Source: Akkermansiaceae bacterium
GTDB taxonomy: Bacteria > Verrucomicrobiota > Verrucomicrobiia > Verrucomicrobiales > Akkermansiaceae
DNA: 64,000 bases
Assembly: GCA_903837825.1 (NCBI GenBank)
Contig: CAILVZ010000042.1
Coordinates: forward strand, 1-64,000
Direction: 5' to 3'
Position 1 is the stretch's first letter. Each line of letters opens with the position of its first letter. Under the pieces are notes generated by a model. That model saw nothing but the letters and a program-made list of their open reading frames with translations, was not told the origin of the DNA and ran no database searches. Position numbers and translations under genes: made by a program. Positions 36,980 to 44,222 of the stretch are shown here, piece by piece.

Positions 36980-37579
36980 TCAGCGATTTCCGTCTTCCGA
37001 GAGGAATGCGACCACTTGGGCCAATGCACGCGCACGGTGGCTCAATGTGTTTTTGATGGAGTCTCCGAGTTCCGCGAACGTTTGTTCATGACCTAAAGGA
37101 ACGAACAACGGATCGTAACCAAACCCACCATTGCCATTCAGTGAATCCACAATCCGGCCATCGACCGTACCTGAAAAATGCGCCACCTCACTTCCGCCTC
37201 GTGCGAGGACCATCGTGCAACGAAACCGGGCACCGCGCTCGGATCGCCCCGCCATCTCGACGAGTAGCCTGGCGTTGTTTTTTGCATGATTTCCTTCCTC
37301 GCCACCAAAGCTCGACGACCAAACCCCCGGCGCTCCCTCCAACGCATCCACCTCAAGGCCCGAATCGTCGGACAGCACCCAACCATCGATCAAGCGGCTG
37401 ATCCCTTCCGCCTTGAGGCGCGCATTTTCCAAAAACGTCGTGCCGGTCTCCTCGATCTGTGGGAAGGCAGGAAATGCAGACGCATCAACCACCTCGAAGC
37501 GCTTACCGATCATCGCCCGAATCTCGGCGGTTTTGTGGGCGTTGCGGGTGGCGACGATCAGACGTGGCAGTGCTTGCAT
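36980..37579 (-). CDS. rdgB: XTP/dITP diphosphatase (RdgB/HAM1)
   Basis: LIVATRNAHKTAEIRAMIG...VLSDDSGLEVDALEGAPGVWSSSFGGEEG...GFGYDPLFVPLGHEQTFAELG. Confidence 0.97.
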   Translation of the reverse strand: MQALPRLIVATRNAHKTAEIRAMIGKRFEVVDASAFPAFPQIEETGTTFLENARLKAEGISRLIDGWVLSDDSGLEVDALEGAPGVWSSSFGGEEGNHAKNNARLLVEMAGRSERGARFRCTMVLARGGSEVAHFSGTVDGRIVDSLNGNGGFGYDPLFVPLGHEQTFAELGDSIKNTLSHRARALAQVVAFLSEDGNR

Positions 37580-37651: not shown

Positions 37652-38116
37652 GTGTGTATGAAAGCAATTACATGGCTCGCTTCCGTGACCGTTAGTGTCG
37701 CGGCCCTCACCGCAACCGCCTTCGCCACCACGCCGGAAGGCTGGACGACCGATCTCGATAAGGCCCTTGAAAAGGCCAAAGCCGAAAAGAAGTCCGTACT
37801 CGTCGAGTTCACCGGATCCGACTGGTGCCCGCCATGCATTGCCATGCGGAAAAATGTATTTTCCAAAAAGGAATTCGTCGATGCGGCCGCGAAAAAATAC
37901 ATCTTGGTCGAACTCGACTTCCCAAAGGGCGATCAAGCCGTGGCCGATAAAAACGAGCCGATGGCGAAGAAATACAACATCGAGGGGTTTCCTACGGTGA
38001 TTTTGATGACCTCTGAAGGCAAGGAGTTCAATCGCTTCTACGCCTCTGAATTCCCGCAGATCGATACGTTCCTTGAACACATCAACAAGGCACTCGAGAA
38101 AAAAGGCCTCGATTGA
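37652..38116 (+). CDS. Thioredoxin-family protein, exported
   Basis: Signal-like N-terminus; VLVEFTGSDWCPPCIAMRKNVFSKKEF; VELDFPKGD. Confidence 0.9.
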   Translation: MCMKAITWLASVTVSVAALTATAFATTPEGWTTDLDKALEKAKAEKKSVLVEFTGSDWCPPCIAMRKNVFSKKEFVDAAAKKYILVELDFPKGDQAVADKNEPMAKKYNIEGFPTVILMTSEGKEFNRFYASEFPQIDTFLEHINKALEKKGLD

Positions 38117-38139: not shown

Positions 38140-38172
38140 CCCCGCCCGGCGCAACGTCGAGGCGGGGTTTTT
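38140..38172 (+). terminator. Intrinsic terminator
   Basis: CCCCGCC...GGCGGGG hairpin followed by TTTTT, just after the thioredoxin stop codon. Confidence 0.8.
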
Positions 38173-40130
38173 CATGCCTCGGGCTCCCAGTAGGCAAGAA
38201 ACGTCGTGGCCGTTATGGGATCGTTGAGGAAAATCCCTGGGCCAGCGCCTAGGTCGGCGATGGCCGCATCGGACATCGCCTGGCGCCGGAGCAATCTCAG
38301 GTAACCCCCACGGCTTCCCGGCACACGCTTCATCCACTCCCATGCGATGCGACCCATCGTGAGACGCACGTTCAACTCCACCACCGGTTTGAGTGCGAGC
38401 GAACCATCGAGCCGCCGATGCACCATCGCATCGACACCCAGTGGACCCACGTAACCGGCAAGCAAGGTCCTGAGCTTAGCAGGAATTTTTTTCTGATAGA
38501 TTTCCATCGCCCGTGCCTCCCGGAAAAGGAAGACGGCCAGATCCGGATCTAACATGGCACCCCACTTGGGGCTCACGCGGATGCCGAGAAATCGGCCGGC
38601 CGCATCATTTTCCATCCGAGTAAGTCCAACGAGTGAAACCTCGCCACTAGGCTTCATTTCGTAGAGTGCTGAGAAATCAAGCACGCGATCTAACCACGGC
38701 TCGACCACGACCGAACCGTGGCTTGTCAGAGTGTTCGCAACCCAGCCGCGGGTTTTCAGCGGGACACTTTCGGCGTTGATTCGCAGATGACCCCGACCCG
38801 CGTATGACATCGGCGCCTTGAGTAGCGCCTGGCTGGTGACCAGACACGCGTCGATCGCTGCGAGCGTGGCTTCGGCGTCGTGAGCAAGGATGCCCGTTTC
38901 TGGCACGGGCCCCAAGGCGTGTTCGAGGCGCAGACCGATTTCCTTGGAAAACCAAGTCGCTGGCAGTGCCTCGCGCCAGGGCTGGTCGATCTGAGGCGAA
39001 ATGTCGTTTGCATAGGGCCGGAGTTGCTCGACGGCATCGGGCGACCAAGCCCACGGCCGGAGCCCACCCAGCTTGCGGCCTGCCGGACTGCCAACGGTTA
39101 GAATTTCAGGCAGCTCGTAGCCTGCACTTTTTAGGCGCGTGAGATGATCGAGCGTGGGCGCTCGCCGCATGAGCACGGCATCGTCACGATGGCAACAACC
39201 TAACAGAAGTGACTCGAGATCGAATTCCAACGCGAGTGCGGTCTTGTCGGGTTGCCATGGTTTGCCGACCATCGCCGCGCGTGCGTGCGACTCCGCATTT
39301 GGGTTGAACCAATGCACCACCGGTGTGCGACCGCGCGAGTGCTGGCAAACTTCGAGGTGGCGGATGAAATCATCGTCCAGTCCTGCGAGTCGGCGGCTGT
39401 CGGCATTGAATGGCGCAAGCCCCTTCGCCCGTGCAGGCGTGAGCGGGAAATGCAGACAACGTCGGTAGCCATCCCAGTCGCTTTCACCACGTTCTTTCCA
39501 ACGGCGAAACCATTTGAGGCCGTGGCCGACATGGCCGATTTCATCAAGATGGATTTTTTCTAACACCGCTGCCGTAGCAGTGTCTCCCACCTGCCGGAAC
39601 AACCCGGCGTAGTGTTTTGAGAAATCCAGATTCGCTTGCTCGAACGTTAGATTGAGACGAGTGACAAAATCCAATGGGGTCTCCATCGGTGCGATGAGCC
39701 GCCAGAAGTGATCGTTTACCGGCAGATCACCAAATGCGATGCCGCACTCACGCATCCGGCGGACATACATCAACGCGTGTGCCTGCTCCTCACGCATCGC
39801 CTCATACACCCCCGCCCGATATTCCTTCGGTGCATCCGGAAATCTCAACAACACCAGCGCCATCAACTCCGCCGCTAACAACTCGTGATTCGCGAGGAAA
39901 TGCAGCATCACCCCGCGCTCCCGATCATCGTCCAGCCGGTGGATCCCAGGGAAATCCACCCGCACTCCATCGCCCCGCACCCGCAACTCTCGCGGCCGCC
40001 CCGGTGCATCCGGCAATGCGATCGCCCGTCCACGCGCCATGTCAGCCGCCTGAAGGGGTCCAAGCCGGAGCTTTTCCTCAAGAATGTCCGCAAACAACAC
40101 CCGCTCCGCGATCTCACGCATCTCCGTCAC
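38172..40130 (-). CDS. DUF455 ferritin-like (di-iron type) domain fused to an ATP-grasp-like ligase domain
   Basis: N-terminal NHELLAAELMAL, REEQAH, FEQANLDF, HLDEIGH four-helix ligand pattern; C-terminal SYAGRGHLRIN..., VVEPWLDRVLDFSALYEM, GPLGVDAMVHR...KPVVELNVRLTMG typical of ATP-grasp. Confidence 0.75.
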   Translation of the reverse strand: MTEMREIAERVLFADILEEKLRLGPLQAADMARGRAIALPDAPGRPRELRVRGDGVRVDFPGIHRLDDDRERGVMLHFLANHELLAAELMALVLLRFPDAPKEYRAGVYEAMREEQAHALMYVRRMRECGIAFGDLPVNDHFWRLIAPMETPLDFVTRLNLTFEQANLDFSKHYAGLFRQVGDTATAAVLEKIHLDEIGHVGHGLKWFRRWKERGESDWDGYRRCLHFPLTPARAKGLAPFNADSRRLAGLDDDFIRHLEVCQHSRGRTPVVHWFNPNAESHARAAMVGKPWQPDKTALALEFDLESLLLGCCHRDDAVLMRRAPTLDHLTRLKSAGYELPEILTVGSPAGRKLGGLRPWAWSPDAVEQLRPYANDISPQIDQPWREALPATWFSKEIGLRLEHALGPVPETGILAHDAEATLAAIDACLVTSQALLKAPMSYAGRGHLRINAESVPLKTRGWVANTLTSHGSVVVEPWLDRVLDFSALYEMKPSGEVSLVGLTRMENDAAGRFLGIRVSPKWGAMLDPDLAVFLFREARAMEIYQKKIPAKLRTLLAGYVGPLGVDAMVHRRLDGSLALKPVVELNVRLTMGRIAWEWMKRVPGSRGGYLRLLRRQAMSDAAIADLGAGPGIFLNDPITATTFLAYWEPEA

Positions 40131-42915: not shown

Positions 42916-42947
42916 TTCGTTAGATTCTATTAGACTTCGTTAGATTT
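42916..42947. repeat. Direct repeat TTCGTTAGATT x2 (20-bp period)
   Basis: ttcgttagattctattagacttcgttagattttt. Confidence 0.6.
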
Positions 42948-43359
42948 TTCGACCTTCGTCATACTCGAAGTATTCGAGCATCGTCTGGATTTCATCACGC
43001 CCATCGAGGCCGCTTTCTTTTTTGCGGCGGGCGAGGATCTCGCTGACTCCGTCGTTCCAACCGACCTTTTTGAGGTAGAGGTTCCAGATGAAAATGTCGC
43101 CCTCATCGAGCGCACGGCCAGCTTGGAAGCACCATTGCAAGATTTCCTCATCGCTGCCGCCCTCAAGGACCTTGGCCACGAGTTCATCGTATTTCACCCG
43201 GAGGAATCCAGTGCAGCGGCTATCGAATCCAGAGCCAAGGTTATCGCAGAAGTCCTCGCGCAGCGATCCAGCAGCATGGCGGCGGATCTTGTCGAGCATG
43301 CGTGCGAAGTAGATCATGCCAAGGGTTTCCTGATAGGCAGAGATAGGTGGTGTTTTCAT
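42940..43359 (-). CDS. DUF5069 domain protein
   Basis: MKTPPISAYQETLGMIYFARMLDKIRRHAAGSLREDFCDNLGSGFDSRCTGFLRVKYDEL. Confidence 0.8.
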   Translation of the reverse strand: MKTPPISAYQETLGMIYFARMLDKIRRHAAGSLREDFCDNLGSGFDSRCTGFLRVKYDELVAKVLEGGSDEEILQWCFQAGRALDEGDIFIWNLYLKKVGWNDGVSEILARRKKESGLDGRDEIQTMLEYFEYDEGRKI

Positions 43360-44222
43360 GGGTGGTTTGCAGCGTTGGGAAAGTAAATCGCACGGAGGCG
43401 GCGCAGGGTCAAATCCAACTCGGCATCGGTCAGCGGCCGATCCCAAATCAGCAGCCGGGCGATTTCGCCATCGAATGATTCCACCCCAGGGTGCTGGATG
43501 GCATCCCGCTCTTGGCCTACCGCCAGGCGCGATGGATTGGCGGCGGGGTTCACCTTGATTTCCGTGCGGACAAATGGACTCGCAGCGTCAACAAAGAGCT
43601 CTAGCGCCACCGTGCCAGCTCCCGCAGCCATCCGTCCCGCAACCAACCGGAAAACTCCCGCCACAAACACGGGCCCACCCAGCTTCGGATTGTTCTCATC
43701 AAAGCGCCCGAAGGTGACCCCATTGCGAGCACCCCACCAAACGGAGTTGTCGTCATCGAAGCAGGCCCAAAGCCCTTCATAATTTTCGCCGTTCCGGAGA
43801 TTGCCGAAAAACGAATTCACATCCTTCAGGCCGACGCTTTGGGGGTGAGGCGCGACGATGGCGACCCACGTGTTGCCGCTGCCGGTGGTGAGACGATCGA
43901 ACCGATCTCCATCAAGGCAGACCAATTCCTGCTGGCAGAAGACCAATGCGGGCTGGCCGTTGAGCGCGCCGATGTCCTTGCGCAAGGTCGGCCGCCCCGA
44001 ACCCGCTTGATCACGGCCTTGGTCTCGTTTGATGAAATCCGCAGGGTCCTCCGTGGGTGCCTGACTCCGCCACCTCGCGACTCGGTCGCCATCTTCCAAT
44101 GTCAAACCGCTCTTGGCATCCAAGTCCACGACCAAGCCGGAAACCGGAATGTCGATGCCACCCCCACGACCGATTCCGGCTAGCAGGCCGAAAAGTGCTA
44201 GGTGAAAAATCGAAAATTTCAT
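43356..44222 (-). CDS. Secreted LamG/concanavalin-like protein
   Basis: Signal peptide; GLVVDLDAKSGLTLEDGDRVARWRSQ; GEIARLLIWDRPLTDAELD; 4-nt overlap with DUF5069 start. Confidence 0.7.
   Translation of the reverse strand: MKFSIFHLALFGLLAGIGRGGGIDIPVSGLVVDLDAKSGLTLEDGDRVARWRSQAPTEDPADFIKRDQGRDQAGSGRPTLRKDIGALNGQPALVFCQQELVCLDGDRFDRLTTGSGNTWVAIVAPHPQSVGLKDVNSFFGNLRNGENYEGLWACFDDDNSVWWGARNGVTFGRFDENNPKLGGPVFVAGVFRLVAGRMAAGAGTVALELFVDAASPFVRTEIKVNPAANPSRLAVGQERDAIQHPGVESFDGEIARLLIWDRPLTDAELDLTLRRLRAIYFPNAANHP

Follow-up and report, generated by a model that had tools for sequence, protein, structure and literature searches.

A single gene of an Akkermansiaceae bacterium joins a ferritin-like domain of the DUF455 family, carrying a full set of predicted di-iron ligands, to an ATP-grasp ligase; the architecture is new, and both of its parts are of known kinds. 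The product is probably a bifunctional small-molecule enzyme, with an ATP-grasp amino-acid or peptide ligase and an O2-activating di-iron oxidase in one chain. In the literature searched, we found no paper on the combination of DUF455 with ATP-grasp and no function for DUF455, the mentions of which appear incidental by title and abstract.

Gene and domain architecture

The window is the whole 64,000-nucleotide stretch of DNA that was analysed. The initial annotation had placed a 652-aa ORF at 38172-40130 near a thioredoxin-like gene, leuS and rdgB; the ORF and all three neighbours are present, and the ORF can now be assigned to the minus strand, which had not been given. It starts with GTG at 40130, with an alternative ATG at codon 4, and leaves 55 nt of free space on its 3' side and about 160-210 nt on its 5' side. 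The features of the gene and its flanks, with residue numbers of the fusion protein, are as follows.

36980-37579, minus strand: rdgB, beyond the thioredoxin-like gene, named from its translation
37652-38116, plus strand: thioredoxin-like gene, the neighbour on the 3' side of the fusion gene
38172-40130, minus strand: DUF455 and ATP-grasp fusion gene, 652 aa, GTG start at 40130 and TGA stop at 38172
39363-40040, minus strand: DUF455 / ferritin-like di-iron domain, residues 31-256 (Pfam PF04305, AF2 model, Foldseek)
39867-39902, minus strand: helix-1 stretch HFLANHELLAAE (77-88), with invariant H77, H82, E83 and E88 (alignment of 43 sequences)
39777-39788, minus strand: helix-2 ExxH, predicted ligands E115 and H118 (invariance in 43 sequences, RNR R2 alignment)
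39639-39641, minus strand: helix-3 predicted ligand E164 (invariance in 43 sequences)
39531-39542, minus strand: helix-4 ExxH, predicted ligands E197 and H200 (invariance in 43 sequences, RNR R2 alignment)
38946-39335, minus strand: pre-ATP-grasp-like alpha/beta region, residues about 266-395, borders approximate (AF2 secondary structure)
38247-38945, minus strand: ATP-grasp fold, residues about 396-628, from invariant K396 (AF2, Foldseek, profile)
38790-38819, minus strand: predicted ATP-binding loop KAPMSYAGRG (438-447) with invariant K438 (aligned to PurK/biotin-carboxylase Lys/Gly loops)
38670-38702, minus strand: EPWLDRVLDFS (477-487), with predicted adenine-side Glu E477 and D485 (aligned to PurK VVVEKWI..EFS)
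38430-38432, minus strand: D567, predicted Mg/ATP residue (invariant in fusions and stand-alone relatives)
38349-38378, minus strand: predicted metal-binding motif ELNVRLTMGR (585-594), with E585, N587 (Mg2+) and R589 (alignments)
Upstream of the fusion gene, divergent: leuS, named from its translation

Homologues of the fusion at 37-84% identity keep the reading frame open from end to end. Among close relatives of the window, pN is far below pS in both halves, with dS near saturation and the N half evolving more slowly, a comparison that points to purifying selection on both halves. A chance ORF or artefact was ruled out by the full-length open homologues, the mostly synonymous substitutions and the invariance of the ligands in 43 sequences. 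Elsewhere in the neighbourhood, an inverted repeat rich in G+C (CCCCGCC...GGCGGGG), with T5 after it, was noticed by eye at 38140-38173, between the thioredoxin-like gene and the stop codon of the fusion, and looks like the terminator of the thioredoxin-like gene. Another uncharacterised family is represented nearby by a 168-aa ORF at 42940-43446 on the minus strand, a DUF5069 protein (E 7.6e-32).

The N half matches PF04305 over residues 31-256 (E 3.4e-46, 158.3 bits versus a cut-off of 34.3, positions 19-246 of the 247 in the model) and, when modelled alone with AF2, forms a four-helix bundle (pLDDT 93.3) with helices at 69-96, 102-128, 152-180 and 184-211, which bears out its original description as a DUF455-type four-helix domain. 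The ligand stretches quoted in that description, HELLAAE (82-88), EEQAH (114-118), FEQAN (163-167) and DEIGH (196-200), are all found and are invariant in 43 diverse sequences; residue by residue, the alignment of 43 diverse fusions gives H77, H82, E83, E88, E115, H118, E164, E197 and H200 as invariant. Among these, E83 is an expected metal ligand and aligns with the corresponding Glu of the chlamydial RNR R2, against whose chains the N-half profile has a weak E-value and an exact ligand register. The ligand pattern, E / ExxH / E / ExxH with one set per bundle, shares its order with DUF455 proteins, and its spacings of 32/3/46/33/3 are close to those of E. coli bacterioferritin (33/3/40/33/3). 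Foldseek returned bacterioferritin (1nf6, probability 1.00), Dps, aldehyde deformylating oxygenase, CmlI and toluene/xylene monooxygenase, with E-values that are not significant (best 0.03) despite probabilities of up to 1.00. Searched up to E 1, the MiaE family profiles in Pfam (MiaE / MiaE_2) did not match the window protein. Judged from alignments and models, the N half is a predicted ferritin-like domain with ligands ordered and spaced as in a di-iron carboxylate site.

No Pfam or NCBIfam model was assigned to the remaining 395 residues, the C half, and a search of the PDB with the single protein sequence found no match, so that family profiles and a structural model were required. The AlphaFold2 model of the full chain, built from the 43-sequence alignment, has a mean pLDDT of 93.0 and a pTM of 0.87, and the top 50 Foldseek matches of the whole protein in the PDB are ATP-grasp enzymes, the best being 8YND, a Streptomyces peptide ligase (E 1e-11), with PGM1 (3wvq/3wvr), LdmS (7r8q), BesA and PurK among the others. 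The profile of the C half matched nine PDB chains, the majority of them ATP-grasp enzymes by name (LdmS at E 0.0026, DcsG at 0.009 and 8YND at 0.028, then carboxylases, PGM1 and PurD), and the Lys/Gly loop, the Glu and the Mg motif are in register across these matches. In a profile-profile comparison with a PurK (E 2e-7), K438 and E477 fall on the Lys/Gly loop and the Glu of that enzyme. The assignment of the pre-ATP-grasp region also draws on a weak PF18604 match in the distant Streptomyces relative described below. Invariant in 43 diverse fusions are K396, K438, E477, D485, D567, E585, N587, R589, T591, G593 and R594. The C half had been called an ATP-grasp domain from the motif GVDAMV...KPVVELNVRLTMGR, which is found in the ORF, and structure prediction and searches alike give it as a complete ATP-grasp ligase whose predicted ATP and Mg ligands are intact.

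No characterised ligase taken singly matches more than weakly in sequence, so the predicted ligase chemistry is assigned by superfamily. LdmS, the L-aspartate-L-methionine ligase (SAOUHSC_02373, 7R8P/7R8Q, NF047900), is the best sequence-profile match of the C half in the PDB and shares its pre-ATP-grasp and ATP-grasp fold; unlike the fusion, it has no di-iron domain, and the LdmS model NF047900 does not match the window protein at E 1. The best fold matches, 8YND and the pheganomycin ligase PGM1 (3WVQ), share 14-16% identity with the fusion protein and are stand-alone proteins. PGM1 acts on a ribosomal precursor peptide (PMC8939145), whereas no precursor peptide was found beside the fusion gene. 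In enzymes of the PurK/biotin-carboxylase type, the Lys/Gly loop and the VVVE...FS region line up with those of the C half, but the context and the C-terminal motif ELN.R.TMGR differ, and identity in fold alignments is 9-16%. A further fold match is BesA, the gamma-glutamyl ligase of the beta-ethynylserine pathway (8YI6, E 4e-9). This pathway also uses the di-iron enzyme BesC, so that ligation and di-iron oxidation are paired there as in the fusion, but in separate proteins, and BesC has a haem-oxygenase-like di-iron fold rather than the ferritin-like one of DUF455.

Distribution and genomic context

Of 39 genomes from relatives of the window's bacterium, 17 have a match: in 15 it takes in the DUF455 part together with all or the greater part of the ligase (in G036 it ends near residue 539), and in two it is partial because the contig ends. 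Within genus g1 the gene occurs in seven of 25 genomes, including the window's own, two of them with just a stretch of the C half matched, cut short by the contig end. Run against one genome per GTDB species, the C-half profile picked out 458 encoding contigs, 80 of which were retained as loci; their hosts are Verrucomicrobiota, Latescibacteria MAGs and one MAG labelled Gemmatimonadota. Whether the fusion is conserved among collected homologues had been raised with the initial annotation, and it is: both halves lie in one ORF at 76 of the 80 loci, and three others are cut by a contig end. In the phylum of the genome carrying L093, the C half occurs in 24 of 64 genomes, mostly in frames of 700-780 codons. 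Phages gave no match to the fusion. By these sequence comparisons the fusion is old and stable, yet patchy, a distribution more in keeping with an accessory than with a housekeeping pathway.

A genuine ligase half without DUF455, 394 aa long, was found at one of the 80 loci, L065. It branches inside the fusions on a long branch as the sister of L032 (100/100), and therefore DUF455 was lost secondarily; no DUF455 was found elsewhere in the available L065 genome sequence. Since the ligase was kept after this loss, the two activities are not obligatorily coupled. In Latescibacterota, two ligase halves without DUF455 (L122:2573-4045 and L123:2745-4289) are placed in the tree next to the fused version. 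Stand-alone relatives of about 370-420 aa, hypothetical or unannotated, occur in Bacteroidales (Parabacteroides, Bacteroides, Phocaeicola, Prevotella), and one of them matches the LdmS model NF047900 at E 8e-8, with 31 bits against a cut-off of 475. In gut and oral Bacteroidales (L106, L107, L108, L109 and L110), the lone ligase half usually lies beside a gene for an AAA-family ATPase and nifJ. A very distant relative, with 25% identity and a branch of 4.29, is encoded on a plasmid of Streptomyces sp. BB1-1-1 (L121:7440-14620), where the natural-product cluster around it also encodes an acyl carrier protein, a radical SAM/SPASM enzyme and a condensation domain. Common to the fusions and nine stand-alone relatives are K438, D485, D567, E585, N587, R589 and G593. 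The C half thus belongs to an unnamed ATP-grasp family that has no curated model and includes conserved hypothetical proteins of gut Bacteroidales, and its occurrence alone in Bacteroidales and some Latescibacterota makes it an autonomous module.

DUF455 was likewise followed on its own. Of 289 genomes sampled across the phylum, 14 match DUF455 strongly, and strong matches to the C half occur in exactly these genomes, in the frame that holds DUF455; strong DUF455 matches in this sample are thus always fused to the ligase, whereas in the alphaproteobacteria examined DUF455 is a lone gene of about 275-285 aa. No ligase lies beside it in any of four alphaproteobacterial loci (a Rosetta-stone test), and in two alphaproteobacteria it adjoins a peroxiredoxin. 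Weak DUF455 matches elsewhere in the phylum (50 bits) proved to be different proteins, one of them 438 aa long, with DUF455 and a second weak ferritin match (L101:2911-4227). Verrucomicrobiota also carry a distinct DUF455-like single-domain protein of 215 aa (L100:2922-3569), and neither of these two has a fused ligase.

The neighbours in the window had been described as uninformative about the substrate, and wider comparison agrees: the gene is solitary, and clustering of neighbouring ORFs of 80 aa or more at the 80 loci revealed no conserved partner gene beyond close kin and no adjacent conserved precursor peptide. The sole operon-like partner is a class I SAM methyltransferase gene of about 260 aa, which lies 2-49 nt before the fusion or overlaps it and is confined to 11 related loci of marine Verrucomicrobiales (L033, L036, L042, L044, L045, L046, L048, L050, L058, L060 and L066), so that the product may be methylated in these bacteria. 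The remaining tightly spaced neighbours are seemingly unrelated.

Candidate reaction and alternatives

It is reasonable to infer a tailoring and ligating bifunctional enzyme, as initially proposed for a peptide, lipid or RNA-linked metabolite; its family resemblance is to amino-acid and peptide ligases. In the C half, read as a catalytically competent ligase, ATP would phosphorylate the carboxylate of a substrate, and the resulting acyl phosphate would react with an amine, giving an amide or peptide bond by the route known from L-amino-acid and peptide ligases. The predicted di-iron carboxylate site of the N half would activate O2 (or peroxide) and, either ahead of the ligation or after it, oxidise that molecule, whether by hydroxylation, desaturation or cleavage, and the fusion would hold the intermediate on one protein. 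Both sites would turn over within one common pathway and yield an amide- or peptide-like product.

Four other readings were weighed against this scheme. The ATP-grasp half might load an acyl carrier protein with an amino acid or other carboxylate, much as butirosin-type pathways do, and the di-iron half might oxidise the carrier-bound substrate; di-iron oxygenases on carrier-bound amino acids exist (CmlI/CmlA systems), CmlI turned up as a fold match of the N half, and the Streptomyces stand-alone relative adjoins the acyl carrier protein, radical SAM enzyme and condensation domain. That relative is, however, very divergent, and no carrier-protein gene is a conserved neighbour at the fusion loci, so that we regard carrier loading as unlikely. 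Modification of RNA or protein, with a MiaE-like di-iron half acting on a tRNA-linked group together with amino-acid conjugation, or with the ligase acting on a protein terminus, has precedents in MiaE, a ferritin-like tRNA hydroxylase, and in RimK-type ATP-grasp enzymes, which modify proteins. But the window protein matches DUF455 rather than any MiaE model (up to E 1) and has no recognisable RNA-binding domain, and occurrence in seven of 25 genus g1 genomes is unlike that of core RNA modification; this role is quite improbable.

The presence of PGM1 and the peptide ligase 8YND among the closest folds would suit the tailoring of a ribosomally synthesised peptide, in which a graspetide-like or PGM1-like ligase acts on the precursor and di-iron oxidation follows as a second step. 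Against this, the 80 loci have no conserved short neighbour among the clustered ORFs of 80 aa or more, and the window gene is flanked by intervals of just 55 nt (3') and about 160-210 nt (5'); we regard such a pathway as very unlikely. Lastly, the N half could be merely structural, or a remnant of iron storage or peroxide scavenging, with the ligase alone active, or the reverse. The ligase does persist without DUF455 in L065, the Latescibacterota paralogues and Bacteroidales, and stand-alone DUF455 genes do lie beside peroxiredoxin in the two alphaproteobacteria; yet none of the di-iron ligands varies among 43 sequences, and of the two halves it is the N half that evolves more slowly, and we give this possibility little credence.

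Meaning for the DUF455 family

We suggest, tentatively, that the bifunctional enzyme represents an unrecognised family in Verrucomicrobiota and Latescibacterota, which would couple di-iron O2 chemistry to ATP-dependent amide ligation and might make an undescribed oxidised dipeptide-like metabolite. Its single gene offers two active sites that can be inactivated separately. DUF455 is a widespread ferritin-like family, and the retention of a ligand-complete di-iron half with an intact ligase across phyla is a first strong hint of an enzymatic DUF455 branch, in which the role, at least for the fused members, may be to catalyse a step of biosynthesis and not to store iron.
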